Source: Siphonodentalium dalli
Lineage: Eukaryota; Mollusca; Scaphopoda; Gadilida; Siphonodentaliidae
Assembly: GCA_032622095.1 (NCBI GenBank)
Contig: CP136066.1
Span: forward strand, 109,141,319-109,205,318
Direction: 5' to 3'
Length of the DNA: 64,000 bases
Positions 24,050 through 64,000 of this stretch are shown here, one piece after another. Position 1 is the stretch's first letter, and the number at the start of each line of letters is the position of its first letter. The position numbers and the translations under genes are program-made. The notes beneath the pieces are model-generated. The model had not been told where the DNA came from. It saw nothing but the letters and a program-made list of their open reading frames with translations, and ran no database searches.

Positions 24050-27000
24050 GTGACTATCCCTTTCATATCTCTATAACTCAAGGATATGTTAACCGATAGA
24101 GGGATCATATAAGAGTTTTCTCCATTTTAATGGCGTTTCGTATGCAATGAGAAGGAAACGGTTTTCCTGACAATAGTTTATGAGTTAATAAATTTTGAGG
24201 TTAATGGGCCAGAGTAGCCAAATAATATGATCCCTCTCAGTTCCGTTTCACCGTTCTGCCAATTTCCGCTCAAAACATAATCCCGAAAGAAGTTTTCAGC
24301 AAAAATCCATACTGCATCCCTTAAAATGATTTGTCATGCCTCATAATGTACTGGGACAACAAGAATATAACATTTAGTTATCAGTTGTTTAAGTAACATG
24401 TTTAATAACTAAGTGAGTCACAATTTGCAACCTTTTCGGAACAGCTTAGAATAATGTTCGGAATAAATATGTCAAATCAACCTTTTACCAAATTTGGTTG
24501 CAATTTTGCAAGTCATCTTGAGTAATTTTGTCTAAAACACAGCAGTGTCACATTTAAGGTAGATCAAAATAAAAAGCATATTTGATACCAAAGATAGTTC
24601 CATTTTACATAACAAAAATGGTGCAAATCAGAAAAGTGATTTTTTGCCGATGTTGATGCCAAGTTTGTGATAAAAATTATTCTGGTAATTTCAGTGATTA
24701 AAATAGTAAACTTTAATCAAGGTGCATCAGAAATATTAGTATTCAATGTATATAAGACAAAATAGTAAATTTTATTCATCAACCACAACTTATAATCGGT
24801 TGCACGCCACGCTGGTGCAATATTTACCATTTTTCATATTTTGGCCGCCATTTTGAGCCAAAGTGACAATTTTGATACCATTGAGTTGGAATATCTATAA
24901 GAAATAGAATGCATCACTTACGTTGCACCGTCCTTCCAATTTCTTGATGAAATATGACTATAATCCCAATGGTAATATTTTTGTGATGTTATACCGCGTT
25001 CTGTAAAATCGAATTTTTGAATGACCGGAAGGGGTGGAGACTCCACTAATGGCATATTTGATTTCCCCGATGGTTAGTTAACATGCTAAATACAAAATAA
25101 AGTCACAATTCTCAACCAGTTCAAAACAGCAGAAACTTATCTTAAAGATATTAGTAAAAAACGTAACATTTTCCACTTCCGGTCATCATTTTGGCTGCCA
25201 TCTTGGGCGGGGAGTTCCAATTTAGGCATAAAAAGGTGGCGTTATGTCTTAGCTCCCCAAAAAGGTATACATATGTATACCTATGGCAAGATATTCTCAC
25301 TATAATTGCATCAACTTACAACAAACTGACTTAACGGAAAATGGCAGCCATATTGGACGCCATCTTGAAGTATAAAAAATGCTCAAAGCGGATTTTAGCG
25401 AATTTTGGATATGTTATAGAGGATATCTTCCTCTTCAAAATGATATATAAACCAACTTAGTACAAATTTATTCTAGGTTGACCCTATAATTTGAGTTTAT
25501 CGACCAGACTATACAGTGCGTGTGGTATTCTTAGGCCAGTCAAAATAATGTCACTTGATATGTTGGAATCTGAGATCGCCATGGCCAGCTCCATCAATGG
25601 GCTGCTGCTGATATATGAGTACCATGAACGTCACCAGAGAGATGGTGGGTCCGCACTTAGCTAAACGAATAAAACCGACGAGTTTCTGACTTTCGAGAGA
25701 TCCCATTGGTACAAGCCTTGTATTGGTGTGTTTTTAACTGGTACCACAAGCTTTTAAAATTGTCGGTGGAAATTCCTAACCTAACATCCGTGATTTGCAA
25801 TTTACTCAAAACTCTCAACTGATTGCTACATTTCAGTACAAAAATGCGATCCCGATATACAATTCGAATCAAGGACAACACAGACACTTGTAATTATAGT
25901 TGGTGGCCTCGTTTTGTGTGCACCGGCAAAGAGGTAGACACCGTTATCATAAATCATCGTTGATTGTTGTCAGCCAGCCACGACGACGCACGAGCTAGTT
26001 GGCAGCCTGCTAACAAAACGACCATGGTGCATGGCATTTTTGAAGTTTGCAGTGTAATTTTGCTAGCGTATGAACCCTAAATGGGTTTGTCGATACGGCA
26101 CGAGTGCTGCCGCGGAAGGATAGAACTCATACAAGAAAAACCACACACTGTACATTTTATAATAACTTTATAATGTATTTTTCGTGAAATGTATAACGGA
26201 CAAACTTATATCACTTTGTTTTAGATATAATTATGCTAAGGAATAGCAACAATATAACACTAGCAGAATGAACTGATTGTATACACGAAATGATGACTGA
26301 ATCACTAAGTTATTCCCACAATCGTTGCACATAAGTCAAGTCACCAGTAAATGTCAGGGAAAATTTACCGTCGATGTCACACTATGTTACCGTCAATGCA
26401 CCACAATAACTTATAATATTGTGTGATTTGAAGATATGGCTGTCTTATATTAAATGCTGAAGCCAAGAGGCCGAAAGCTTCTAAACTGTATCTATCTTAT
26501 GATTATAGTAATACGACGTCCAGGGCTGCATTCACACGATATGGGATGGACCTTTAAGCTTATTTCTATATAATTATTTCTAAGGCGAATTTGACTTCAC
26601 ATATTTAAACATAAATTTGTGCCAATGGAAAATAAAGACGACAACCGACATTATTCATTTCGAAGAAATTTTGGTAATTTATTAACGGCATCCATATAAC
26701 AATAAATTTTCATATTTATAAACACTTACATGATATTTATAATATTCGCCATCAAAACACTCAAACTTGAGTTCTATGCGATAGTCTTCGACACAAAGTG
26801 TATCATACAATCTGCACCTTCTTAAAATAAAGTGATAGACGGTGATATGTTTTAGTTGAATATTCGTTACTGGTCATAGTTAATAAGTGGATAAAATAAA
26901 TTATTTATAGAGCACAATTCAACACAACTCAACCACGTTTGGCTGGTTGCAGTGAGCTATTGAAGAAAGACAACATGCCTCCGTTCCTGGTCCACACAAG

Positions 27001-27255: not shown

Positions 27256-27418
27256 CTACAGGTGTGTGACTTCTGATTCGACCTCAGATGTTTCTGAAAA
27301 TATGTCGAATTCGCTCTCTGTGTAGTCATCTGCCAGGTCACCTTCATCAATAGTGGCCGCATTAGATTCCATCGTGAAGTTTGTACTGCACGTTGAGTAA
27401 CGTGGTGGCATCGGATAG
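27256..27418 (-). CDS. Receptor gene, acidic terminal tail exon B
   Basis: Acceptor TGATCTATTTCAG, enters in phase 2, ends in TAG; exactly 163 nt and 53 residues like exon A. It reads YPMPPRYSTCSTNFTMESNA, ATIDEGDLADDYTESEFDIF, SETSEVESEVTHL. The flanking non-coding sequence is unlike that of exon A, so only the protein is conserved, which argues for selection after an old duplication. Confidence 0.52.
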
Positions 27419-30400
27419 CTGAAATAGATCACATGTGCAATACAGCCATACGAGGACAACACGAAGAAGTTCGCTGACCAAACGCGCTGCATGCGGTGAA
27501 ATATGATGTGAAGATTTGTTTAGTAGATAAGGCGGATGCTTCCCCAGCTAGTGAATGTTTGATGTGCACAATGTTGCCGCCATGTTTCAGATCGCATGCG
27601 CATAATCTGCGCACAACGGCAGCCAACACGGAACGCATGCATGAGTAACCTGTCCGCGCGCATGGCCCACACAAATTCATAACCCGAGCACCATCTATAT
27701 AGTAAATTGGCATTCAAGCCTATATCTGAGAATAAGTTCCAAGTTCCAGCTGAAGTCAAACATCTCTATTCCAGGTGAGACATGATATAAGTACAGCCTA
27801 CCGCTATAACACAAGTCAGAATGGAACCAACAAGAAATGTCAGAGTGCATCTTGTTGGGATAGAAACAGCCGAGCTTAACACTTCAAGGAACATCGATTC
27901 TCCAGTGCGCATTCGTTATAAGCACGATGGCACTTGAGCTCCAATCAGAATTTATGCGTGCTATACGAAACCAGTTCAAAGTTATTAACCACGGCTACAA
28001 TTAAACCGACCATGCAGTTTTGCCTACCGCCGGAGAACATTCATGCAGTAATCATTGGCGCGCGTCATTTGAAATCGCTAGAGAGCGCGTCATTTGGCAT
28101 CGCTAGAGCGCTGTTCGGAAGGAATATTCAGACACGAGATCAAACTCATCATCATCGTCCAAGAAATCGTCATCCTCAAAATCAACCTCTGTGTCCACAG
28201 TCGCAGCGCCGCCGTGCGTCGAATCGGTGCTAATGACAGACATGCGTGGTGAGTTTTGTTGAAACCTGGAACATGGAAATGACTGAGACCATACGCGTGT
28301 GAAATGCAGATCGATAATAATCAGCCATTGCGTTGGTAATGATGGCTGCCGCTTTGGTAATAATTCAACAAGACAAGTCAACACCATTTATGTTGTTTTG
28401 CACAGAACCTCGTGCTTTAAGATAAAAATATATACAACCGTACTATTATAATAGACAAAATTATAACTAACAAAATATAGCCTTCTTCAACTCCCGAAAT
28501 CGAAAGACCGTTAGAAACCTTTCTTTGTTCATTAACCTAAATATATCCAGAACATTTCTGTCATTGTCCTGGATACATTTATGACAAGAGTATGGATAAC
28601 CTACAAGTCACCACCGCCTTTTTTTTTTACTCAAATTACATTTAGTACCTCAAATACTTATGTTCCAACATTATACGCAGTGTACGCATCCATGTTCATA
28701 CACTATCAAAGTTCTATTTTGTAATGTCTATATCATGATGACCAGAAAATAAATTTTATTTAGTTACACATTTTGAATGGTGTTGATTGGTCTGTTTAAT
28801 CATTACTAAATCGAATAGCGCAAATGAATGATTGGTGCATTTCGTAAAATACAGGATAAGAGAGAGAGAGAGAGGACAGGATAATTATGCATTATGAAAA
28901 TGAAAAATAATTTTTTTTTATAATCAAGATGAATTTCCAACATCAGTGTCATTGCACAAATCAAAATTTCAGTTCATTTTGATTCCATAACGAACAAAGT
29001 TGTTTGAAAGTAGGCAATTCAACACTGAACGTATGAGTGGATATCAACATTAGGGTGAACAAAGAACTATAAATGCAGTAAGTGACCGGCTTAATCGCTG
29101 ATTGGTAGAATATGTCAGCTAATAATTATTTGATTGACAGCTGTGGAAAGCACCATCGCTTTCTTGGTATGGAAGAGCACAGAACTAGTGCAAGCATGGA
29201 ACCTAGTAGATATTGCGACGAATATCTACTCTGGCTAACGCCCGTAGAGATCATATTCCACCAGTACAAAATCTGGGAACGTTTTGTAAGTTTGACAGGG
29301 AACCTTATACAGTTGAAAAAATAACACGGGAAATATATTTCTTAGTTATTTTCTGTTCCATAATAATGTACTTCACTGCAGGTGAAGGCCCCAACTAGAA
29401 AGTGCAAGCCCATATCGCAATAAACATTGAATTGACGCAAATCGCTTACAAAGTCACTTAAATCGTGAAATTTAGATTTGGGACCTTCACCTACAGCGAA
29501 ATACGTTGTCAAGGAACATATAATAACTAAGAAATATATTCCCCGTGTTATTTTTTCGACTTTATAATGTTCTCTATCAAAACTTCAAAAAGTTCCAAGG
29601 TTTTGTACAGGTGGAATATGATCTCTACGGGAATTAGCCAGAATAGAGATTCGTGGCACGATCTAGGAACCTAATTGCTGTTTGTGAAATTTAGCGCACT
29701 TTTAACGACTCTTCCTTGTTAGTTTTGATGACAAAAAAAATCACGAATATTAACTAGAAACAGATGAGTATATACTAGATAACATTTTCAGCGTTCAGTG
29801 TTTGCGACTTTCAAAAGGAATAAATTACAACTCGATTTAATTCATTTTTTTAGAAACAATTTGCACACATAAGTGTTACTCATGAATTATCTCCCGTTGT
29901 AATCCAACATATATGGTGAAAATGGGTGTTCAGTTTACTACAAATGCAAATATGTGTGAAATCTTAATAGTTTGTAAATAATTTTGTTACTATTGATGGG
30001 CGAATTCTGTTTACAGATGACCATAAATTAGTCAAAATGTAATGTTAATGTTTAGCCTAAAATGCAAAAGAAACTATCACTATCATTCGTATGGCACAAA
30101 CAAAATACAAACTAGAATCCATCATTTAAAGCTGAAAACGAGTACAAAATATCATAATTGATAACGCTCTTTATTATCTTCCGTTTTTTTTTCTGTGACG
30201 GGAACATGGACGCTATTTATACAAGAGACGGTCGTTGGAATTTTTGCTAGGTGACAAAAAAATAAAAAGTGTTTCCTCTTTGGAAAGTTGAAATTTGGCC
30301 ACCAAAATCTCATATTAATGGGCTCAAGGGGTCGATCTAATTATGTTCTGATGTTGAAGACGTACATGTGACGGTATTTATGGTGTCAATTCGGACAGGA

Positions 30401-33400
30401 CATCTTTAACAAAGTATGTTCGACGAATGTGTTCTGCGAAGTGAGCCATACGCTGTGCTGAATACATTATTTTAATATTACTATCACTATTTCTGATTGG
30501 GCAAAAGCCGTCACATGATAATCCGGGAAAAGTCACGAAGTTGGACTCCCGGAAGTCGTATTGGACTCCTAGAAGTCATATTGGACTCAAATCGAGTGCA
30601 ATATGACTTTTATAAAAAGTATCTTTTGTATATACACTCATATATCTTAATATCATGTAACACTTGCTAAGAGAATAAAGCATATAATGCTGACGCCATT
30701 TTGGATAAACATACAGCTGGATAATAACATGTCATTATACATGTACAATGTTGTGTAATAACTTTATAATATCTGCCGGGTGTGCAATTGTGAATCTTGA
30801 CGAAATCTTTAAAGGTACGGTTGGCCTTGGCGGTGGATATCCTGTGAAAATATTTCCACCCGTCAAAAACCGCCACAAACAGAAAGAACAACAAAATGTA
30901 GACAGTCTTTGTCCGTATACAAATAAGAAATATCGCATAAACAGTATGTTATTGTCATATATTTGACTATTGTTAAGTAAACAAAAGCATAAAAAGTTAC
31001 TTTTCTGGTGTTTGTTTATATTATGATGGTAAACATAAAGAGCGTTCTTTGTTGATGAATTCCTGATATGGAACGAATAAAGAGCGTTTATGCAATTTGT
31101 GTGTGATTAGCCAGCAGCATTGTGCTGTCTTCTGTAACACAATCAGGCTCTTGCTCAGGTAAAATATAGTAAATCTTTATGATAACATGCTGTTTACGCA
31201 ATGGTCATGGTATATATGAACGAAACTGTATGCGTTTTAATGTTTTTCTGTTTACGGTGATTGGAACAAATGTGAATATTTTCGACAACTAAGGCCTCAC
31301 GTGCCTTTAACTTGCCGGTGTGAGTGAACACAGGACAGATTGATTCACACTTGTAGGCGACATACCTGTTGAAGTTGACGGTGTCGGGAACACTCAATGT
31401 ATTTGTGTTGCTAAAGTCCATTTGTGGTGCGTTGCTTCTCTGCAAGGTTGTCTGTCTGCTACAAGGATATAACCACGAGAATGACACCTCCCGATCGAAA
31501 CAGCAAGTATAACATGATATCGTTGGAAGTCACAGACGAGGATTAGGTTTACGTGATAAAAGGTTGTGAAATAAATACAGAATATAGCTTGCGTCAGAGT
31601 CTGTAACACATAGTGATATCATTATTGAGAACACGTGTAATATGTAATAGAGACCAATGGTATGTAATTAAAGGAACAAAATTAATGTTCACGCGTTTCA
31701 ACCAAATCCGGCCTTTCTAGCATGCTATATATATGAATTTTATAGGTAATTTCAGAATAAGTCCATGTAATTGAATTCTCTGACTGACCCTTACCGGGAG
31801 TAAGATGCACCTGCTTTGGTTAGCATCTCGTTGCGACAATCTGGTGTACCATTCCCGTTAAAGGCACGGGCGGCGTTCGTTGCAGAAATATATATATTTT
31901 TTCAAATTGCCACCAACAGAAGGAACACCAAAATAAATACAGTTCCGCTCATAATTATGCCAAACATAATCAGCGCGTAAAAAGTATATTGTCAAGACGT
32001 ACGATGGTGAACGTAAACAAGAGCCTGCTCGTCTTACAGAAGTTGTGCTTCTGTTTACATAACACAGCGCAATTCTATTGGTTAATCACACAAAAATTAT
32101 ATAAACGCTCTTTATTATTTCCATATCAGGAAAACAGTAACAAATAACGCTCTTTATGTTTACCATATCCGGATCTAAACAAAAACCAGGAAACGTAACG
32201 TTTTTTGCTTTTGTTTACATAACAAAGGGGGAAAATACTGTTTATGCCATATTTCTGATTGGCATAATAACAAAGTATGTCTATATCTTACTATTCCTTC
32301 TGTTTGTGGTGGTTTTTGACGGAGGTGAATATTTTAACAGCATACCCACCGCCAACACCGCCCGTATCTTTAATACTTGCATAAAATAGACCAGCTCATA
32401 GTACTTTATATAGTGGAGAGTTTGGTTACATCTCACAACAGTCCACTGATGATATATATATTTATGCAGGGACGTGGATGTGGTATATATTGGGGGTGTC
32501 CAATATGAAATGCTCAACTGCACCCCTTCCATTGAAAACATTGATATACGTTTCCAACTGGTGCCCCCATGCAGGGAAGCTGTCCCAACTGTTGGGAATA
32601 CCAAACTTCAACTTTCATTCCAAACATTTGACCGACGGTAGGGAAAATATCCGCATTTTGGTCTAGAAACAACATAGTTCATACAAAATACTAGTTTAAA
32701 AACAAAAGTGTCATAACAATTGCGTCCTAAAATATGGCATGGCGAAAAGTTTTTGCGAAAGTTGGGGGGGGGGGGGGTGAAACATCACCAAACCACCTAT
32801 CGCCACGTCCCTGTATATATGCGCGTTCTCTTTTACTACTTACCTGCTATTATTGAAGCTATTTCCGGAAGTTGACCCTGCGCTCGGAACTACACTGCCA
32901 CCATCATTCGTTTGAATGAGCCCTGGCCTGTCGAGATAAACCGTTTATATAGTACAATCATATAATAGTTTGTTTGGAAAAGAATCAGCATAATATTTTT
33001 CAGAGATGAAAGGAAAAACGTTTCTACAATGCACATCTGTGAGCAGACTATTCAAATATCGTGTCTTTTGATATCCACCATTCCTCTTTCGTATCAACGA
33101 TTCCTCATTTGGTTGACAACAAACGCGGTCTTGAAATGTCATTTGCAGGAATTACTTTCCCCGAAATATAATATAATATAATATTACGTTTCAAATAAGG
33201 TCGGCTGGATGTTTTCTAACAGAAAGGAGGGGGGTCCCACGATGTTACATGTATGCATATATTCGAATATGTTCTTGGCCGTTCGAGAATGAGCAACCAC
33301 AGGTGATTTACACCGAGCCTCTCGATTACCCATAACATATCAATAAAAGACCAGGAACAGAGCGTGATGTTGGTCGCAGTGTCATTGGGTAAGTTATATC

Positions 33401-36400
33401 TATTGGTGGTCGAATCTTTGGGTGTATTTATTTTTTATATGTTTTTGGTGAATTGCCATCCACTAATGCCTAATAGCGCAGATTCGAATACGCGACAGTA
33501 CAATTAAAGAAATTTCGCAAATCTTGACAAAACTTGACATTTGACCTTTTTCTGGATCTTATTTTTTAAAGTAATCCATGCATTCCGATGTCTTATATCA
33601 AGACGTGAAGCTCTATAGCGATTTACATGAGAACTGGCACGTAAGTTGAAAATCACTACAAAATCGCAGAGCAATTACACTTATTATATGTTATGTGATC
33701 GCGCGATGGCAATGACCTTACATATTTAGAATGTGATGAACTTTTCAAAATAGGACCAATTTCAATCGGGCCAACTGATTCTGGTTTAGCCATTGATAAT
33801 TATAATGCTAATTTGCCAGCAGTTTATTGACGTTTTATCACCATGGTTACGTACGTGTGTTGCCATGGGAAATCATAGACGTTCTCCGTAGAACGCCCGA
33901 CTGGTTCCTGGCTAGCATTTTGTCGCCACTTCTCATAGTCACCATTGTACGCAGGATTCAGGAAGGAACTGTATACGACTGGTTCCTGGTGTGTTTCCTT
34001 CTGTATCATCGTGTCACGATAACGTTTGTTATCGGACACATACGCTAAAGATGACGTGCTTTCCGAAGACGTGTGGTCCATGTTGGAATGCCTGGAAGGA
34101 AGAGAGCACGTTGTACATGTACCTACTTTGGATTATACTCTAGAAGATCATTTCTGAAGATGATAGTAATGCTACATTCTTCGAAATATCAGACATTTCA
34201 CAATCTGAACGGATTACATGCTGACCCCGAGTTGATACAAATCTGCCTGTGTCCCGACCAAACACCACAGCTTACCCTGCACCAATATATTCACACCACT
34301 CGTGTTGAATAATTTACACCACCCCTCCCACATGAAATTATAAGGATCATCAACCGTGGCACCATCTACAAACCTTTATACAAACTTATGCGTATATGCG
34401 ATATAATACGAGGAGAGGAGCTATAGCTATATGAAAAATAAAGCTGGGAATGTTGACGACAATATTCCAGTGGCGTTATCCTGTGTTATTTCAAAAAGTA
34501 TTGGAAATGGTGTTGTTCAATAAATGCTCTGAACAATTATATACCACAGACAACCATTTTGGTTTTAAAATTATCATTCAACGGACGGCTGCATATTTGC
34601 ATTAAAAGAAGCGATACGACATTATAATTCTAAGGATACTCCTGTTTTCGTGTGCTTCTTGGACGCAAGTAAAGCGTTCGATCGTGTCAACCATGAAATG
34701 CTACTACGTCATCTAGAGCAACGATCAGTGCCATCAGCTATTATTCGGATCCTTAAGGACTGGTTTCTAAATCAGACGTATAATTTCGCTTGGGACAAAC
34801 ATACTCTACATGCTTCCGGCCCACGAGTGGTGTTAGACATGGTGAAATATTAAGCCCTTATTTATTTAATGTGTATATCAACGAGATTAGCGAAATACTG
34901 AATACGTGTGACGTTGGGTGTATTGTTGGCAGCGCAAAAATCAATCATTTATGTTATGCTGATGATATGTGTATTATTGCACCAGCTTTGGGGGGACTAC
35001 GTCCTTTGTTGAGAATATGTGAACACCAGGCTAAGAAGGTTTATTTAACTTATAATATTATAAAAACTGTGGGGATGACTTTTATCACTAAATTTCTTCA
35101 TATTCGGTCATTTCCAAAAACTAAACTTAATGGGCAATGAAATCAAGTTCGTGTCCTACTATAAGTATCTCGGACATATACTCAACAACGATTTTTCCGA
35201 TGATAATGATATTATGCGTCAATATCGGTCAATATGCTCACGCTCAAATATGCTTATTAGAAAGTTTTACATATGTTCGCCTAATGTGAAAATGTACTTA
35301 TTTCAAATGTTCGTATCTCCATTATATTGTGCTCATCTTTGGATTAACTATACCAAACGCTGTTATAGAAAACTTACAGTTTGTTATAATAATGCATATA
35401 GAAAAGTTATGGGTTATGTAGTGCGAGTGGGATGTTTGTAGGTGGCAGAATGTGCCCTCTGACAGTGTTGATTCGAAAGGGTGTGTATGACACTGTATGG
35501 ATTTCGTGTGAGAATTTATAAATATTTAAACAGTATTTTGAATGCTATTTGTAACTCAGATCTGATCTATCGATCTAATTTATTCAATCATTGGAATCAA
35601 AATCTTTATATTTAATTTATAATTATATGTTGTATGTATGACTATATATGGGCATATCTTGCCTGAAATAAACACAATACAAATAACTAAGTTGCATAAC
35701 ATGTACTCCAATCCCCAGTGGTTACTCCCTCAGCATTCATTACCTCCACATCATCAATTAATTGTCAATACTGTATACGGAAGCAACAATAAATATGTTA
35801 CAAACAAAAACCTACTTGAGCAGAAAAACGTTTATATTTGCACAAGCATATAGCTCACACTGAGTTATGTGCACGGTGACAACATAGGACCGAACTGCAC
35901 GTACTATATGATGATGTACTATAAAAAATGTTTTATATTTCTTGAGTGTTCTTTGAAAAATTACTTAGAACCAGTTGTTGACAAATGATATATTTACTTG
36001 CTTAAAGGTACTCAACCCGTAAAGAGGGTCCCCATCTCAACAGATTCCAACAACAAAAATCCGATCAGAGGGTCCTATATTACTATTTATTTGGCTTTGG
36101 GGGTAAAAAATATTTGATTCGAGTCGAGGAACCCATCAAACAAAGCTCAGAGTTATTAGATATTGATTTTTGAAAATTCTTATGTTCTCGAGATGAGTAC
36201 CAATAACTGCCGTCAATTTGGTAACCTGCTCGAGATTTGACGCCAAAATTCTATTCAAACAGACAAGGATGGATAACTCTATAATCAAGTGGGTAATAAT
36301 AACGAATTTTTGATTGTCTTCTGGGCCAGAAAGAATTCCCGATAATGAAAAATAATAGATTTCTAAAATCGATATCTAACAAATCTGAGCTTTGATGGGT

Positions 36401-39400
36401 GACTTCCTCGACTCGAATCAAATATTTTTGACCCCCGAAGCCATTGAAATAGTAATTGAGAGGAGTTTTATCGGGTTGAGTACCTTTAAACATGGCTGGC
36501 TGGACGTTAGCATGTATGGGTTAGCTGTGGCCAGTGTGGTGTGCTGTGACGTCTGTTGACAATATAATTTAAGCTTCAATCAAACCGTACCAGGCCATCA
36601 CACTATTGCTAGTAAGTGGATCACCACTCACTCATGGGATAATCACTCATGGGCCAGACTGGACATAAGCCATGAAAAGGTGACCCATAAACTGCTAGCT
36701 CTCAGTCAACCATGTTATGCAAGTTAGTATATCATTTGTCAACGACTGGTTCAAAGTAATTTAATTATGGGTCTTTGACTGTTCAGTTAGTTGAGTTGGT
36801 AGAAATATCCTCCTCGTGGAGTTCATTTCTGGGCATTCCATTATATAATGAAATTCGTCACCGATTAACCCTTTGTCGCACAGATTGCAAATTCTCGCAT
36901 CAATTGCCGTGTCATTCCACGAGCCGACATCAAAGGGCAAATGGTGTTACATTTGTAACGTCCAAAACAGAGTTATTTTTCAATGCCAAATTGTGTCTTT
37001 ATAATACGATATGTACTATTTTGCCATGCATGCTTGTACTGGTTCTCCATTGATTATCGCACTATACTGTTAAGCTTGTTATTCTCGATATGCAGCAGAA
37101 CATTTCATTGCAGAAAAGTGTGTATATGGGTAAAACAACATCGTGAGGCGATCTGGCAACTCATGCGCAGACAATATTGTGAGCATGCAATTTTGAAGCA
37201 AAGAAACTTTGTATCATTCAAAACACAAATTAGACCAAAAGAACGTCAATTAATTCGCAATACTTCTTGTAGGAGATCAGGAGAGAAGTGGTATCGGAGT
37301 GCAAAACTAAGCAGCACGATATGGTCAGTGCATGTTGCGGAAAGGGTGGTTATCCGTATGTTTTTTTCGAGGCGTAGCTGGACAGTGGCTGTGCGATGTT
37401 CTCCCATTTCGATGCAATTATCACCTCGTTCGAAAAAGTCAGACTATTTCTACCCAAGTGACCTGATCATTTATCTGATACACAGCTAATATAAGTGCAA
37501 TCGCATCCACTTGGCTTCTTATTCTGTGCTAATAGTGACGTAATTTAGACGTTTTCTGTTCCAGATTTTGGCGTTCTGTACAATGCAGTCGATGGCAGCC
37601 ACGTAAGTAATCATAATATTACGGATAAATATACACTTTCTAGTGGAAGGATGATATGACTTACTTGGTTTCCTCGGCTTCCCGGAAACAACACTTCATG
37701 ATGACGACAGCAAGACACACAAGTAACAGAGCTCCACATCCTGCGAATATCCCTATCATTAGCTGCCAGTAGTTCGTTATTCCGTATGACGAATCAGCTA
37801 CATGTTAAAATGGAATTCAAGTCAGAAAATAACAACATGAAATGGAATAATATTTTAATGCATGAAAACAATATGAAAAATAACGGAATGGTGTGTCCAA
37901 GCTAATTGCATTATGTGCATACATGATTATGATGGCTGTCTCATGTCCTGGTCTTGATATTACTTTATCATAGGGGCAGGGTCTGGCTGAAGTATAATAT
38001 CTTCATAAAGGACCACATTAAGAGCCTTTTAAGGTTGCGTTTCATATTGTTCGTACTCATCTGATTATAAAGACCAAGACTAACTGAGAATGTAATTTAT
38101 AGGTACCATCTATAATGCCAACTGTTTAGAATTGAGGATAAACAACCGTACTTACGAAAGCATTTGGGTAGAAGGTCTGGTTCCCATGCAAGGTCTTGTG
38201 AGCATGTGAGAATCTTCGGCCCCATCAAGTGGAATCCAGGATTACAAGTGACGTTAACAGCTGTCCCCACCGTCTGTGAGTGAGTACTAAGACTGATCGA
38301 ATCATAGTCGTGTGTGTGGTTTAATCTCTGGCAATCTGAAATTAAACGGAAATTGCTCATTTGAACTTGAAAAAGTATTTATACTGTTATGGATAATATA
38401 CGTCGATAAAAACGAAATACCGATTTCCAGACTTTACATGTAGATCTAAAAAAAAATCAGCAAATTTCCAGTCGTTTTCATTTTTCCAAATAAGGGTGAT
38501 ACATACCGCAGGGTTCACGCTGTCATAGGCCAATGGCTATTTTTTCGAAAATGGCTACAAAAAAAAAATTCATTTGGCCAGACTTTTTGGCCAGTTGTTT
38601 TTACCCCAAAATCGGAAATCTAATTAAAAAACCCAAATTGATTTTGTAACGGAAGCGACATGAGAATCAAATTTATAGTATGACCATCTTCTAGTTGAGT
38701 AGGTGATCTAGCTTAATTGGCAACAAAATGCACCATGGAACTATGTAATAAAACAGTAATGATGATTAACACTAATGAATTCTTTGTCTGTCACAAGGCT
38801 GAACGGTATATGGTGGGTAGTGCCATATTGCCAAGTAACAATAGTGAGGTTAAAGAAATATATACACGATATTTGAAGGTATGGACATAATTATATAAAA
38901 AAAGATGAGCCAGGGTTTAGGCGCTAATTATAGTTTTAGTAGGCTTGTTTAGAGTTGCGGTGTGTAATAACTTTGCCGTGTATACGCCCGTCTTTGCGGA
39001 TTGTTAAATAAATATGTCCTTATGTCCTCATCTTTTAGCCTAAACAGTGGACATTCGGCAGATGTGAGGTTTTGCCTGAACTATTTCATATTACATTGCA
39101 GTAAATAGTTATCTGTCATCTGCCATAATTTTATGATAGCATTTTTGTGGCTGCTGATGAATGTTTTGATAACTTATATATGAACATCAAAACCAGCATG
39201 TATGGACCCATAAGTTCTATCTCGTTCGTCAAATGTAATTTCTGGTCATGTATAAATAACGTAATTCGTAGTTTCATTGTGACGAATAGGGTGATATATC
39301 ACTTAATTTTCGAATGCCCAGATAACATTATTCCATATTATATACCATTTGGAAGAGGAACCAAAAAATATATATTCCACCAGAATACGAAGCAGCTGTG

Positions 39401-40087
39401 GCCTAGGACTGTCCACCAAGTGATAGAGATTCATTCCAAGACCTCCCCTTGTCAACCCAGAATACATCAGAATTCAAACTAAGACATAGAGTTTTCCCTT
39501 CCATTGAGTATAATAGACTTTATAGTACAGTCCGAATGAAAATTAAATACAGGACACACCTTGGTACCTCGACAAAAACAACATGTTGCCAGTTTATTCG
39601 ACCGGATCAGTTAATAATACAATGTTTTGGAGCTTCCTCTTTCAAATGGTATATAGCATGGAATATGTTGTATATAATGTGATCTGGTGATTCGAAAATT
39701 AAGTGGGCCTTTAAGCTTGACAGGAAACGTGCATGAAAGCTTTCAACAGGATATATCATACATGTACATAATCATGTAGTGATAGTTCAAGGGAACACGA
39801 TTGATTCCATATACCGAGAATAACGTAGAATAAAATACCGACAACTACCCGTACATACATGTATCATATGTAAAGTATAAAAAAATAAGAATTTCTTCCA
39901 AACTTACATCGTTGTTTAAACGTCGGCGTTGTTTCGTGGATATGTGTGTCGATAATCGTCATCAGATGGGTGTGTGCTGTCGTCAGCAGTTTCGTCGCTG
40001 TCGTCGTCAGAACTGACGTCGTCGTTGGCGAAGGCAGCTCTCGAAACAGTGGATTGTCGTCGGTTGCCATAGTGACCTTGGTGTCAG
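27256..40087 (-). CDS. Single-pass membrane protein: Thr-rich stalk, sushi domain, TM, alternative tails
   Basis: Phase-compatible minus-strand exons in order: 40087-39908 (Thr-rich, phase 1-1), 38335-38156 (one sushi/CCP domain, 1-1), 37797-37665 (transmembrane, 1-2), then tail exons that all enter in phase 2: 34091-33824 (ends in stop), 32927-32844 (2-2), 31458-31366 (2-2), 28265-28103 (stop) and 27418-27256 (stop). Sushi domains mediate protein binding at the cell surface. The tails hold sorting or signalling motifs (NPxY, YxxM) or acidic clusters. Because 34091-33824 ends in a stop while compatible exons follow, alternative terminal exons are the simplest reading; two neighbouring genes is the alternative. 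The N-terminus is uncertain: no signal-peptide exon was found. Three dispersed elements and a LINE relic lie in the introns. Confidence 0.55.
28103..28265 (-). CDS. Receptor gene, acidic terminal tail exon A
   Basis: Acceptor TTTCCATGTTCCAG, enters in phase 2, ends in TAG; 163 nt, 53 residues. It reads FQQNSPRMSVISTDSTHGG, AATVDTEVDFEDDDFLDDDD, EFDLVSEYSFRTAL. The tail is dominated by Asp/Glu. It is homologous to exon B at 27256-27418 (shared PR, ST, AATVD/AATID, EFD, SE words). Confidence 0.55.
28400..30800. other. Receptor-gene intron
   Basis: Apart from the 29208-29660 inverted repeat and a GA tract at 28860, nothing is recognised. Several A/T-rich stretches could host branch points but no coding exon. 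Confidence 0.4.
29208..29660. repeat. Large inverted repeat, ~185-bp arms
   Basis: 29208-29396 pairs with 29478-29660: for example GTAGAGATCATATTCCACC recurs as its mirror GGTGGAATATGATCTCTAC, and AAATATATTTCTTAGTTATT pairs with AATAACTAAGAAATATATT. A short frame in the left arm is not coding. Confidence 0.75.
30809..31310. mobile_element. TTAA-flanked MITE, family 2, copy 1
   Basis: 502 bp between TTAA tetramers, ends AAGGTACGGTTGGCC and GGCCTCACGTGCCTT. The middle holds inverted AAAGAGCGTT words around GAATTCCTGATATGG. Short exon-like open frames inside it are fortuitous. Confidence 0.75.
31366..31458 (-). CDS. Receptor gene, 93-nt tail exon (phase 2-2)
   Basis: Acceptor TATCCTTGTAG with a second CAG three bases later (a TAGCAG tandem acceptor), donor GTATGT. 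Only phase 2 is open. It gives RQTTLQRSNAPQMDFSNTNT then LSVPDTVNFN. Like the 84-nt exon it is symmetric. The right end of a TTAA MITE lies 56 bases beyond the donor. Confidence 0.55.
31858..32373. mobile_element. TTAA-flanked MITE, family 2, copy 2 (diverged)
   Basis: 516 bp, opposite orientation to copy 1, ends AAGGCACGGGCGGCG and CGCCCGTATCTT. It shares TAAACGCTCTTTATT, CTCTTTATGTTTACCAT and TTCTGTTTGTGG words with copies 1 and 3 but is more diverged. Confidence 0.7.
32844..32927 (-). CDS. Receptor gene, 84-nt tail exon (phase 2-2)
   Basis: Acceptor GGTTTATCTCGACAG, donor AGCAG then GTAAGT. Only phase 2 is open; the other two frames stop inside. It gives KPGLIQTNDGGSVVPSAGST and SGNSFNNS, a Ser/Gly/Asn-rich linker. 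Length is a multiple of three, so it can be skipped without changing frame. Confidence 0.55.
33824..34091 (-). CDS. Receptor gene, terminal tail exon with NPxY and YxxM-type motifs
   Basis: Acceptor TCTTCCTTCCAG, enters in phase 2, so the join with the TM exon gives ..EETK-HSNMDHTSSESTSS.. The 88-residue tail has VVYSSFLNPAYNGDYEKW (NPAY is a PTB/AP2-type NPxY motif, YSSF a YxxPhi motif), ENVYDFPW, and QHTYVTMVIKRQ before a TAA stop (YVTM is a YxxM motif). A minus-strand AATAAA overlaps the stop and another lies near 33,430. Confidence 0.65.
34455..35440 (+). mobile_element. LINE reverse-transcriptase relic
   Basis: Consecutive RT blocks appear in shifting frames: VALSCVISK..LEMVLFNKCS, DNHFGF, then VCFLDASKAFDRVNHEMLLR (34650 on), LSPYLFNVYINEISEILNTC, the catalytic-box word LCYADDMCII near 34955, YYKYLGHILNN and YRKLTVCYNNAYRKVMGY. 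At least three frameshifts and stops show it is dead. The order of blocks is that of non-LTR retrotransposons, but I cannot fix the clade. Confidence 0.8.
36002..36489. mobile_element. TTAA-flanked MITE, family 1, copy 2 (inverted)
   Basis: 488 bp, the reverse complement of 4783-5268 over essentially its whole length, with TTAA at both ends and termini AGGTACTCAACCCG/CGGGTTGAGTACCT. These ends pair better than those of copy 1, so this copy is nearer the ancestral form. It lies in an intron of the sushi receptor gene. Confidence 0.78.
36983..37489 (+). CDS. Unassigned 168-residue open frame, possible YqaJ-like fragment
   Basis: The frame is open for 168 codons, long for DNA of this composition. 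A TATGCAG/TTGCAG acceptor pair lies at ~37095-37115. From there it reads WVKQHREAIWQLM, then RPKERQLIRNTSCRRSGEKW and YRSAKLSSTIW. The order 'KERQ-I-x-x-T...S-x-x-W-x-x-R/K-x-S' is reminiscent of the start of YqaJ-type recombinase domains in invertebrates, where SWIM and YqaJ occur in one protein. The resemblance is weak and the catalytic residues are not visible. No function is claimed. Confidence 0.25.
   Translation: MPNCVFIIRYVLFCHACLYWFSIDYRTILLSLLFSICSRTFHCRKVCIWVKQHREAIWQLMRRQYCEHAILKQRNFVSFKTQIRPKERQLIRNTSCRRSGEKWYRSAKLSSTIWSVHVAERVVIRMFFSRRSWTVAVRCSPISMQLSPRSKKSDYFYPSDLIIYLIHS
37665..37797 (-). CDS. Receptor gene, transmembrane exon
   Basis: Acceptor TTAACATGTAG, donor GTAAGT, phase 1 in and 2 out. 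It encodes PDSSYGITNYWQ, a hydrophobic helix LMIGIFAGCGALLLVCLAVV, then the stop-transfer IMKCCFREAEETK with a membrane-proximal Cys pair that could be palmitoylated. It directly follows the sushi exon. Confidence 0.75.
38156..38335 (-). CDS. Receptor gene, sushi (CCP/SCR) domain exon
   Basis: Acceptor GTTTAATTTCAG, donor GTAAGT, 180 nt, symmetric phase 1-1 as usual for sushi exons. The four cysteines are in place (CQRLN; VTCNPGFHL; LTCSQD; PKCF) with the conserved Trp in AWEPDLLPKC. This is a complete complement-control-protein module of ~57 residues. Confidence 0.85.
39908..40087 (-). CDS. Receptor gene, Thr-rich stalk exon
   Basis: With the acceptor CGTCTTCTAAG the exon is 180 nt, phase 1 to 1, donor GTAAGT. 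It reads DTKVTMATDDNPLFRELPSP followed by a run rich in Thr (TTTSVLTTTATKLLTT), as in mucin-like O-glycosylated stalks. Alternatively translation starts at ATG 40070, but then no signal peptide precedes the sushi domain. A stop lies in frame just upstream of the assumed acceptor. Confidence 0.45.
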
Positions 40088-49400: not shown

Positions 49401-50000
49401 AGCATGATATGAAGTACTATTAAAATAGAATTTGTGTCAGTATTCCATGACTGTTGGCAATTAATAAATGGCGTTTGGCTCGGATATTGCGCCTGTAGTG
49501 CATGTTTATACCCTCATGTGGAAACATTCGTTTTCCTAGAATTATAGATGCGTCAAAGGCGTATAATTCAGTTCAAAGTCCGCCATGCATGCAGTATGCA
49601 CCTGTCACTACTCCGAGTATTACACACACATTATTCAAGGTCAGGCATAGTATAACTATCCAGAGACTACCCATGTCTTTGCCAGCTGACTTTTTGTATC
49701 AAATATATGACATTAACGGATGCACCCCAAGACGTATTCTTGGCTAACATTAAAACACACATGCGATCTAATGTGGACCCGGTGAATGAATAGCGCGGTA
49801 GGTTGACACACAAACGTTGTCTCAAATTATCCGAAATTCCACCAGCAATCCAAACTGATCTCCGCACCGAGCAGGTCAAATTGGTCATCCTTGTTATTTA
49901 TCAGCCATTTTCCTAATCTGGTCAAATAACAGCATTGTAAATAATGGGAATGTGTGGTGGCACCTCGTAAGTTCTCACACAAATATCACAACATGGACTG
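46450..50000. other. Mostly unannotated intergenic DNA
   Basis: Besides the exon-like piece at 47609-47794, the only structure seen is an inverted pair: CTCGAATAAAATAACCAGTT (48862-48881) and AACTGGTTATTTTATTCGAG (49274-49293), with matching flanks. Confidence 0.45.
47609..47794 (-). CDS. Unidentified terminal exon, Cys-containing helical segment
   Basis: A good acceptor (CACCTTTTTCTGTGTCAG) opens a 62-codon frame ending in TAA: LFVSCRSMIYHALSLQNRCL, QQDRRLSVRDEVALCVHDMT, NEDIEHDCMSPLMRFLARFD. Spacing of Cys and alternating hydrophobics suggest a small secreted helical protein, but I do not recognise the family and found no partner exon. Confidence 0.3.
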   Translation of the reverse strand: MFVSCRSMIYHALSLQNRCLQQDRRLSVRDEVALCVHDMTNEDIEHDCMSPLMRFLARFDA

Positions 50001-56233: not shown

Positions 56234-56736
56234 TTAAAGGCACGTGAGGCCTTAGTTGTCGAAAATATTCATATTTGTTCCAATCACCGTAAACAGAAAA
56301 AACATTAAAACGCATACACTTTCGTTCATATATACCATGACCATCGCGTAAACAGCATGTTATCATAAAGATTTACTATATTTTACCTAAGCAAGAGCCT
56401 GATTGTGTTACAGAAGACAGCACAATGCTGCTGGCTAATCACACACAAATGGCATAAACGCTCTTTATTCGTTCCATATCAGGAATTCATCAACAAAGAA
56501 CGCTCTTTATGTTTACCATCATAATATAAACAAACACCAGAAAAGTAACTTTTTATGCTGTTGTTTACATAACAATGGTCAAAGATATGACAATAACATA
56601 CTGTTTATGCGATATTTCTTATTTGTATACGAACAAAGTCTGTCTACATTTTGTTGTTCTTTCTGTTTGTGGCGGTTTTTGACGGGTGGAAATATTTTCA
56701 CAGGATACCCACCGCCAAGGCCAACCGTACCTTTAA
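56234..56736. mobile_element. TTAA-flanked MITE, family 2, copy 3 (inverted)
   Basis: 503 bp, the reverse complement of 30809-31310 with few differences, TTAA at both ends. The closeness of copies 1 and 3 indicates recent mobility. Confidence 0.78.
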
Positions 56737-59131: not shown

Positions 59132-59344
59132 TCAGTAAGTCACATGACAAATGAAAGGGACTTGGGTGATATTACTTTGACCGCACTTGACTGTAATTTC
59201 GTAAGTGCCAGGTTCCTCGACACGATAAGTGACGTCATAGATGCCATCCCCAGTATATAGTACAGACGTCTCTGTAACGCTGTGCATCCGAGGTCCTACA
59301 ATAACAACCATGACTGGACCAGCGTGCATATTGTCTGTAAATAC
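59132..59344 (-). CDS. Filamin-like gene, last exon
   Basis: 213 nt, phase 0, ends CHVTY-stop. It holds strands B-G of the filamin repeat, with the DGIYDVTY and PGTYEITV words. Confidence 0.78.
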   Translation of the reverse strand, partial: VFTDNMHAGPVMVVIVGPRMHSVTETSVLYTGDGIYDVTYRVEEPGTYEITVKCGQSNITQVPFICHVTY

Positions 59345-62300: not shown

Positions 62301-64000
62301 GCATGTTGACGTTATTTCCATTTTCCAGTGGAAAAATATAACGGGAATATCACAAGAATCATAAAACTGACTCAGTTCACAAGAACCATAAAACTGACTC
62401 AGTTGAAAGGATATTATCGTTCACAATCTTTGAATATCATACACTGTTTGAAACTTCGAGATACAGTTATTCCGATGCAAACATCTGTCAGTTTCAGTTT
62501 TTATTAATGGCCTACTGCTAGTGTACCTATGGACCATATAGCACACTACGTGCACTTTTATGTCCGTAATAGTTACGGACGTCATAGCAGCGAAGAGGTT
62601 AATGGGTTTGTTGATACGGAACTTACAGTGCCATCGCGGGAGGATAGAACACGATGCTGCGGCGCCCAATCTATCCTTATGGGTTAGCACTCGTGCCTTC
62701 TCAACAAACCCATTAACATACTCGTGTCGTTCTGGGTATGTATATAACTTACTTGGAAATTATTTTGAGCACCAACCACTCCGATCAATAGCCCGGGACC
62801 AGAAACGATGTCGGTATTTTTGTCGCTTGGGAGAAGAAAATGGTCAAGAAAAGCCGAGAACTCAACACAGAAATCGGCGAAGCTTGGTTGACCATCGACT
62901 GTGTCGCTAACGGAATGAGGCAGCGATGACTCAGAGCATATTGTGTCCTTGTCGTTTTGATTATATTCCATTTCGCCAAACACAGACAGAGAATGGACGT
63001 CACTTGTGGGAAGTGGATTGTCGATATCCAACAATCCGCCATCTAAACACCTTTGTTGATAGTTGCTTGTATGCCTATGGATAGCAGGCAAGGGGCGAAC
63101 AGTTGAGCCTATCAAGAACTGTTCACAATTATCCGAGAACTGGGAATGTTTTCTGCAACATGACTGATTGCGGCACAACGCACATTGCGTATGTACTTCA
63201 CAATCGACTTCGTCAATTGTCTGATGAAAACTCGAGTCGAAATTCAAATTATTTTTCTTGAGTGACCATGTATCGCTGTGTTCATGGAAATAAGAATCGA
63301 CATTTAAACTGTTATCGCTGTGAGACAAGCTATCGTTGTGCTCCACGCATCGCGCCATTGATTCGAAAAAAATATCGCGGCTGATATCCCTACATGTCTC
63401 ATCGACGCACCTCTCTGATTCATTGCCAGTGATATTTGTAGCTTCACGATGTTGTGCGCTCGAATAATTATCACGAGGAGTATCGAACGTTCTGTATGTG
63501 GATAACTCGCCGAATGTCGAAAGTTCGCCGAGCAGGCTTATTCTCCGAGATTTATTTACTCCGAAACGCCGATGAGACTCGTCTGTATCACAAGTTTCAG
63601 AAGAGGCGTTTGCGTCGTCGGTCTTCATATCATCGCCACTTTCTGACTGTTTTCCGCTGCCTGTGAATACGGAACTCGATGTCTTGGTGGGGATTTGAAG
63701 AACTGTTGGTGTAAGAAACTCACTAATATCACAAGATATATCTTCATCCCACCAATTCAATGGAGGTTGTGTATTGACCGAGTCGGCGTGTTTTCTTATT
63801 TCTGGAGGCCCGCTTCCGATCGGCATTGGCTGTGGAGGGGAGATCACTCTATCTGATTGGCAGATCGGATTCGGAGGCGGTGGCGAATGTGAGTTAACTT
63901 CTGTCCGACTTTCTCTTGTCACATTCAACCTGTTCTGGTGATGATATTCAGCTGGGTCGATATCAACAGAGTTGTTGAAAATAATCAGTGCTGCATCTGA
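59132..64000 (-). CDS. Filamin-type protein, last two exons (C-terminal filamin repeat), continues past right edge
   Basis: Exon 64000-62753 (open at the window edge, 416 codons, donor CCAA then GTAAGT, phase 0) joins exon 59344-59132 (acceptor TTATATTACAG, stop TGA). The join completes a filamin/ABP280 immunoglobulin-like repeat: GPGLLIGVVGAQNNFQ, then VFTDNMHAGPVMVVIVGP, TGDGIYDVTYRVEEPGTYEI and TVKCGQSNITQVPFICHV. In filamins such repeats form rods and the last one dimerises; these proteins cross-link actin and anchor membrane receptors. The ~390 residues before the repeat are low-complexity, rich in Ser/Asp/His, probably disordered, with a Cys cluster CALCRNQSCC. That long linker is not typical of classical filamins and suggests a filamin-like relative (jitterbug-type or other). 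The N-terminal part is outside the window. Confidence 0.75.
59531..59890. repeat. Dispersed repeat, copy 2 (~360 bp)
   Basis: Same orientation as 41579-41935 and clearly alignable throughout. It lies in the filamin-like intron, ~190 bases from the last exon. Confidence 0.65.
60330..60475. mobile_element. Palindromic TGCCAATGCATTCTC-type element, truncated copy
   Basis: GGGGGAGCCTCGCATAGATA, AGAGAATGCATTGGCACTGG, then CAGGAAGCTCTAATCATGGA and a further inverted TATGCGAGG piece. It lies in the filamin-like gene intron. Confidence 0.45.
60640..61010. repeat. GTCC microsatellite plus two ~165-bp tandem units
   Basis: (GTCC)n at 60650-60675, then two units starting AACATTTTTGGTTTCCGA at 60677 and ACATTTTGGTTTCCGACC at 60848, each with CGATAACTCCAGTTT, GAACCAAAGTTGGTATGTG and TTACATGAGTTA. 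Confidence 0.8.
61140..61490. repeat. Tandem AACTCAATTAAATATTAACTG units
   Basis: CTCAATTAAATATTAACTGA recurs at 61156 and ~61265, with CAATATCTCGGACGAGTTCG at ~61217 and a variant at ~61440. Confidence 0.7.
62753..64000 (-). CDS. Filamin-like gene, penultimate exon (partial)
   Basis: The frame is open from the right edge (SDAALIIFNNSVDIDPAEYH) to the donor. It includes proline-rich SHSPPPPNPICQSD, LNWWDEDISCDISEFLTPTV, CALCRNQSCC, and a hydrophobic FADFCVEFSAFLDHFLLPSD before GPGLLIGVVG, which begins the filamin repeat. The real exon start is off the window; the TTG at 63928 is not a start codon. Confidence 0.75.

Follow-up and report, generated by a model that had tools for sequence, protein, structure and literature searches.

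CD46 is a complement regulator that binds C3b and C4b and acts as a cofactor for factor I. Of its two cytoplasmic tails, Cyt1 has a PDZ-ligand sequence at its C-terminus, and tyrosine motifs are present in Cyt2. The protein is described as combining a sushi ectodomain, a Ser/Thr/Pro-rich stretch and one transmembrane (TM) segment with alternatively spliced cytoplasmic tails (PMC3023775), and Cyt1 as being bound by the PDZ domain of GOPC (PMC7295977). For integrin alpha6, exon choice after the TM segment is described as swapping the A and B tails, which have different PDZ-type ends (PMC5930856). Here, we analyzed a 64-kb stretch of the Siphonodentalium dalli genome (GCA_032622095.1, contig CP136066.1, 109141319-109205318; hereafter the window), with a sushi receptor gene on its minus strand. 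We read this gene, with rather more confidence than doubt, as encoding one single-pass (type I) receptor with three mutually exclusive C-termini, namely an endocytic tail and two PDZ-type tails. As far as CD46 is described in these sources, the two are alike in having a sushi ectodomain and one TM segment, with a tentative Thr-rich stem in the place of the Ser/Thr/Pro-rich stretch and a gene anatomy that would fit alternative tails. However, CD46 has two tails and four sushi repeats, whereas in the S. dalli gene one sushi repeat was found and three tails are predicted, of which two stem from a duplicated exon, together with an FxNPxY signal. Several consecutive sushi repeats, as in a CD46-type protein, were not found (one match), and the resemblance is best taken as an analogy that fails in repeat number.

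The first-pass annotation had proposed one membrane protein whose cytoplasmic tails are interchangeable through exons downstream of the TM exon. For the TM exon and the five tail exons (E1 to E5), the coordinates, phases and stops that it gave all proved correct. The features concerned are as follows.

38156-38335, minus strand: exon for a sushi (CCP) domain, phase 1-1, with four Cys in the translation
37665-37797, minus strand: TM exon, 133 nt, entering in phase 1 and leaving in phase 2; a paralogue on contigs C5 and C6 has a similar TM exon with the same phases
33824-34091, minus strand: E1, terminal tail exon, 88 codons from phase 2 to a stop, with FLNPAY and YVTM
32844-32927, minus strand: E2, symmetric 2-2 exon, 84 nt, open in phase 2 only and leaving in phase 2
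31366-31458, minus strand: E3, symmetric 2-2 exon, 93 nt, open in phase 2 only and leaving in phase 2
28103-28265, minus strand: E4, terminal tail exon, 163 nt, 53 codons from phase 2 to a stop, acidic, ending RTAL
27256-27418, minus strand: E5, terminal tail exon, 163 nt, 53 codons from phase 2 to a stop, acidic, ending VTHL
26678-26683, minus strand: possible shared polyadenylation, or poly(A), signal for E4 and E5, the first AATAAA past both

All five downstream segments accept phase 2, E2 and E3 are closed in the other frames, and three of the five (E1, E4 and E5) end in stops. Because these stops silence everything downstream, alternative splicing is forced if all five exons belong to one gene, and since E4 carries a stop, each protein would contain one copy, E4 or E5. 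Nine exon chains (three full and six from the TM exon to the tail) each translated in a single open frame that ends at one stop. The acceptor of E3 is a tandem one, at 31458 or at 31455 (90 nt), each in phase 2; an alternative E2 acceptor at 32922 is open in phase 1 instead. Integrin alpha6B, as its source describes it, involves a frameshift after a 130-nt deletion, whereas the S. dalli gene keeps one phase at every join and has its own stop in each terminal exon. We infer the tail switch from these phases and stops. Of the earlier proposal, one gene with forced alternative C-termini stands as the simplest reading, given that no alternative first exon able to feed E2 was found at the donor threshold used and that E4 and E5 are duplicates. 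Its description of the remaining tails as acidic holds for E4 (-13) and E5 (-12) but not for E2 and E3, which are near neutral (-1 and 0); E1 lies at -2 on the same scale.

The homology of E4 and E5 is an addition to that proposal. These tandem exons, equal in phase and length, have translations with 20 of 44 residues identical (BLASTP E 5e-5). Their local alignment score of 60, compared with a mean of 26 (sd 4.9) for shuffled sequences, was reached by none of 2000 shuffles. Within the first 26 residues, which are less acidic, 0 of 5000 shuffles reached the local score; for the global score the count was 2 or 0 of 5000 under different gap costs. Residues in common include PR-S--ST, EFD[LI]xSE and the T-x-L ending, plus AAT-D in the local alignment. 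E5 was also the best non-self match of E4 within the window (E 0.001); a poly-Asp microsatellite at ~7.2 kb came next (E 0.002), mainly over the acidic stretch of E4. Since random open reading frames (ORFs) would not be duplicates, E4 and E5 favor real exons. A class-I PDZ ligand has the C-terminal form [ST]-x-[VIL], and both tails end in this pattern (TAL in E4, THL in E5), which predicts a ligand in each. E4 and E5 seem to descend from one duplicated terminal exon and to have both kept the entry phase and the class-I pattern. Kinship of E1, E2 and E3 with other tails was also considered and rejected, as the closest pairs, E3/E4 and E2/E4, were matched by 158 and 167 of 2000 shuffles. No further sushi, TM or tail copies were detected in the window, where the other exons gave chance-level matches only.

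The ectodomains of CED-1 and LDLR are of other types than that of the sushi receptor, and we know of no tail swap in either. The CED-1 tail is described as having FQNPLY and YxxPhi signals, with its NPxY bound by the PTB domain of CED-6 (PMC11228867), and the FxNPxY of LDLR as bound by the PTB domain of DAB2 (PMC9821069). E1 is like these tails, so far as their sources describe them, in having F-x-N-P-x-Y in a cytoplasmic tail. Its FLNPAY is a full FxNPxY, occurs in 0.04% of 100,000 shuffles and is a predicted uptake signal. Among the E1 motifs singled out in the first-pass annotation, NPAY is sharpened to this full form, but YSSF and YVTM are of kinds common by chance (YxxPhi in 76% and YxxM in 22% of shuffles). 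Because E1 has a full FxNPxY and E4 and E5 have PDZ-ligand-like ends, we restate the proposed switch as one between uptake and scaffold docking. Pfam gave no match on E1, E4 or E5. The E1 isoform had a sub-threshold Protocadherin match over the TM segment and tail (16.3 bits against a cut-off of 26.3, E 0.01).

In the proposed mechanism, E1 would be a terminal exon placed upstream of the others, and it may have a poly(A) signal of its own. Transcripts that use it would encode a tail whose FxNPxY could engage PTB adaptors of the Dab2/CED-6 type and lead to uptake by clathrin. Skipping E1 would join the TM exon to E2 and E3, followed by either E4 or E5. The latter two may share a 3' end at 26683, in which case choosing between them would be a matter of the acceptor and not of polyadenylation. 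The acidic E4 and E5 tails, with their T-x-L ends, could then direct anchoring or sorting by PDZ scaffolds instead of PTB-adaptor uptake. An AATAAA at 33828 overlaps the E1 stop and another lies at 33432; the interval between E4 and E5 contains no AATAAA or ATTAAA. This arrangement is compatible with E1 ending separately and E4 and E5 ending together, but is suggestive only.

A rather unlikely alternative is that there is little regulated switching, with E2-E3-(E4/E5) as the constitutive tail and E1 as a minor or decaying form, or the reverse, with E1 dominant. Splice sites were scored with a matrix built from consensus values. Among 2929 minus-strand AGs, the E1 acceptor ranked first, with E4 in the top 0.14%, E2 in the top 2.5%, E3 in the top 8.6%, E5 in the top 12.6% and TM in the top 18%. 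Among 3751 GTs, the E2 donor was in the top 0.05%, E3 in the top 0.24%, TM in the top 0.53% and sushi in the top 12%. The strength of the E1 and E4 acceptors and of the E2 and E3 donors favors the reading of one gene with three tails. The best acceptor of the strand, an unbroken 88-codon frame and FxNPxY argue against a minor role for E1, and E4 and E5 are both open. Weakly in favor of a multi-exon tail as the older layout, the paralogue on C5 and C6 also has 2-2 segments past its TM exon. This sushi-TM gene (L009 and L010) is present as two copies ~98% alike, which are recent duplicates. In each copy the sushi exon leaves in phase 1 and the TM exon has phases 1-2. The TM exon shows 33% identity to that of the window (BLASTP 2e-8, from a single comparison in which membrane-segment composition inflates the score). 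Downstream, a 2-2 reading was found at 5 of 9 and 6 of 12 candidate donors. Agreement between the copies is no sign of constraint because they are so alike, and in ~32 kb downstream of the TM exon tblastn gave no E1-, E4- or E5-like match better than E 2.5. The pair offers mild support for phase-2 tail exons as a possible family habit and none for the tail switch.

It is improbable that the sushi/TM gene ends at E1 and that E2 to E5 are a different gene further downstream, driven by a promoter of its own. E1 is the first tail exon after the TM exon, and a poly(A) hexamer lies at the E1 stop; there is also an in-frame Met in E3, and in-frame ATGs occur in the stretches before E4 and E5. However, 37664-32928 yielded no first exon that starts with ATG, has a phase-2 donor (score at least 4) and could feed E2 instead. 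Internal-exon candidates were sought on the minus strand with an acceptor score of at least 0, a donor score of at least 3.5 and a sum of at least 6.5, giving 20 rows in 64 kb. Within 37664-27419 the candidates were E2 and E3 only, with two acceptors each. At these thresholds no further candidate lies between E1 and E2, and the phases match.

Several observations weigh against a single gene with three exclusive tails. The E5 acceptor is ordinary (top 12.6%). The ungapped comparison of E4 and E5 was matched by 171 of 5000 shuffles; with this weaker score, the equal 53-codon lengths would conceal small compensating indels. A T-x-L end arises in ~3% per shuffled tail, and the homology of E4 and E5 means that their two ends are not independent. 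Chance could also explain the poly(A) layout, since AATAAA or ATTAAA occurs 20 times in 13 kb, and the variants CATAAA and ACTAAA are present after E4, between E4 and E5. Some of the 2-2 segments of the C5/C6 paralogue are of low complexity or have more than one open frame, and no terminal exon was located for that gene. Codon scores speak in favor, as E2 to E5 exceeded the 95% level of non-coding windows, with E2 and E3 below the maximum of those windows, and E1 scored just beneath the top of only 16 windows; the test is weak, with one training ORF and a low score for the TM exon. Also in favor, though with limits of its own, is a control that drew on DNA from elsewhere in the genome (10 of 34 loci, without the paralogue's loci L009, L010, L015 and L018 and the small search loci). 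At E3-level thresholds, 198,806 strand-bases contained 3 internal-exon candidates, 1 with a 2-2 reading. This corresponds to 0.05 expected 2-2 segments in the 10.2-kb tail region, where two were seen (E2 and E3), which makes this pair unlikely by chance; the figure is a guide and no clean p-value because the thresholds were picked after seeing E3 and the control rate comes from one hit. It is very improbable that some segments, chiefly E2/E3 or E5, are chance ORFs beside cryptic splice sites: an AG is often followed by a terminal-type ORF of at least 45 codons (the minus strand has 121 such site/phase combinations with an acceptor score of at least 0), and such ORFs are weak evidence by themselves, but E5 is homologous to E4 in frame, and E2 and E3 lie ~40-fold over the control rate, a ratio from one control hit.

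If one gene with three exclusive tails is accepted, a possible though doubtful further step is that it represents a CD46-like tail switch that arose apparently independently on a single-sushi receptor. Receptor fate would then be under three-way control by splicing, and the E4/E5 duplication would contribute a further level of choice. If expressed, one receptor would have opposite trafficking instructions picked by splicing, reached partly via terminal-exon duplication. Such a locus would offer a small natural system for testing how a receptor is reprogrammed by its tail exons, and would bear on whether sushi receptors of other animal lineages control uptake likewise. Judged by title among the matches listed, the literature contained no invertebrate sushi receptor with alternative tails; a literature search on CD46 with Dlg4 gave no match.

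We then considered the body of the receptor gene. In a six-frame scan, the sushi exon matched Pfam PF00084 (E 3.2e-7, 31.1 bits, cut-off 20.7), which places it in the sushi/CCP family, and in the assembled E1 isoform the same match reached 34.2 bits. Between 37.5 and 64 kb this was the one sushi match (E at most 1) on the minus strand, in a scan that very divergent or exon-split repeats could escape. Among the best 60 of 65 matches in a PDB sequence search, matches began within the sushi part and none spanned the tail; a few weak ones (E at least 0.03, TNFRSF9) extended slightly past the sushi part. Rfam gave no match at gathering scores. Two further exons are tentative.

49602-49674, minus strand: tentative first coding exon, signal-peptide-like MGSLWIVILCLTLNNVCVILGVVT, exit phase 1
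39908-40087, minus strand: tentative Thr-rich stem exon, open 1-1, acceptor 1.1, donor 3.7

The former is the sole hydrophobic ATG exon with a phase-1 donor (score at least 2) in 59100-38336; its donor is modest (2.5) and its coding score low. The latter has a low codon score in the needed frame, and another frame scores higher but has 2 stops. In that other frame, positions 39979-40053 (minus strand) encode an acidic stretch resembling the E4 and E5 tails, with two stops in the exon. Both exons match in phase yet remain uncertain candidates; with them, the assembled proteins would have 277 or 301 residues.

The receptor should begin below 59134, because the upstream gene ends there with a TGA. 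Its terminal exon, at 59132-59344 on the minus strand, encodes a filamin repeat (PF00630, E 3.4e-9), and a filamin repeat as part of the receptor was ruled out, since that exon stops at 59134. A 416-codon open stretch at 62753-64000 (minus strand), running up to a donor at 62753, is a candidate part of the same upstream gene. The TM-E1 intron contains antisense reverse-transcriptase fragments of a LINE-like element (PF00078; 34515-35080, plus strand), split over two frames; of the two matches, one exceeds the family cut-off and the other falls short of it. A dispersed repeat of ~500 bp is present in three copies (30809-31311, 31857-32373 and 56234-56736), two of which flank E3 in opposite orientation.

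Relatives were also sought across the genome (2.23 Gb in 9 contigs). With E1, the search returned itself and one match at E 9. E4 returned itself only, and because E5 was not recovered, this search is insensitive at the E4-E5 distance. The sushi-TM query gave 18 matches: itself, then weak sushi matches from E 0.05, with the C5/C6 pair at E 0.19. On C3, L001 and its neighbors (~206394530-206402929) contain many sushi matches in one open frame of 2818 residues, which we read as a very large sushi exon or an intronless gene.

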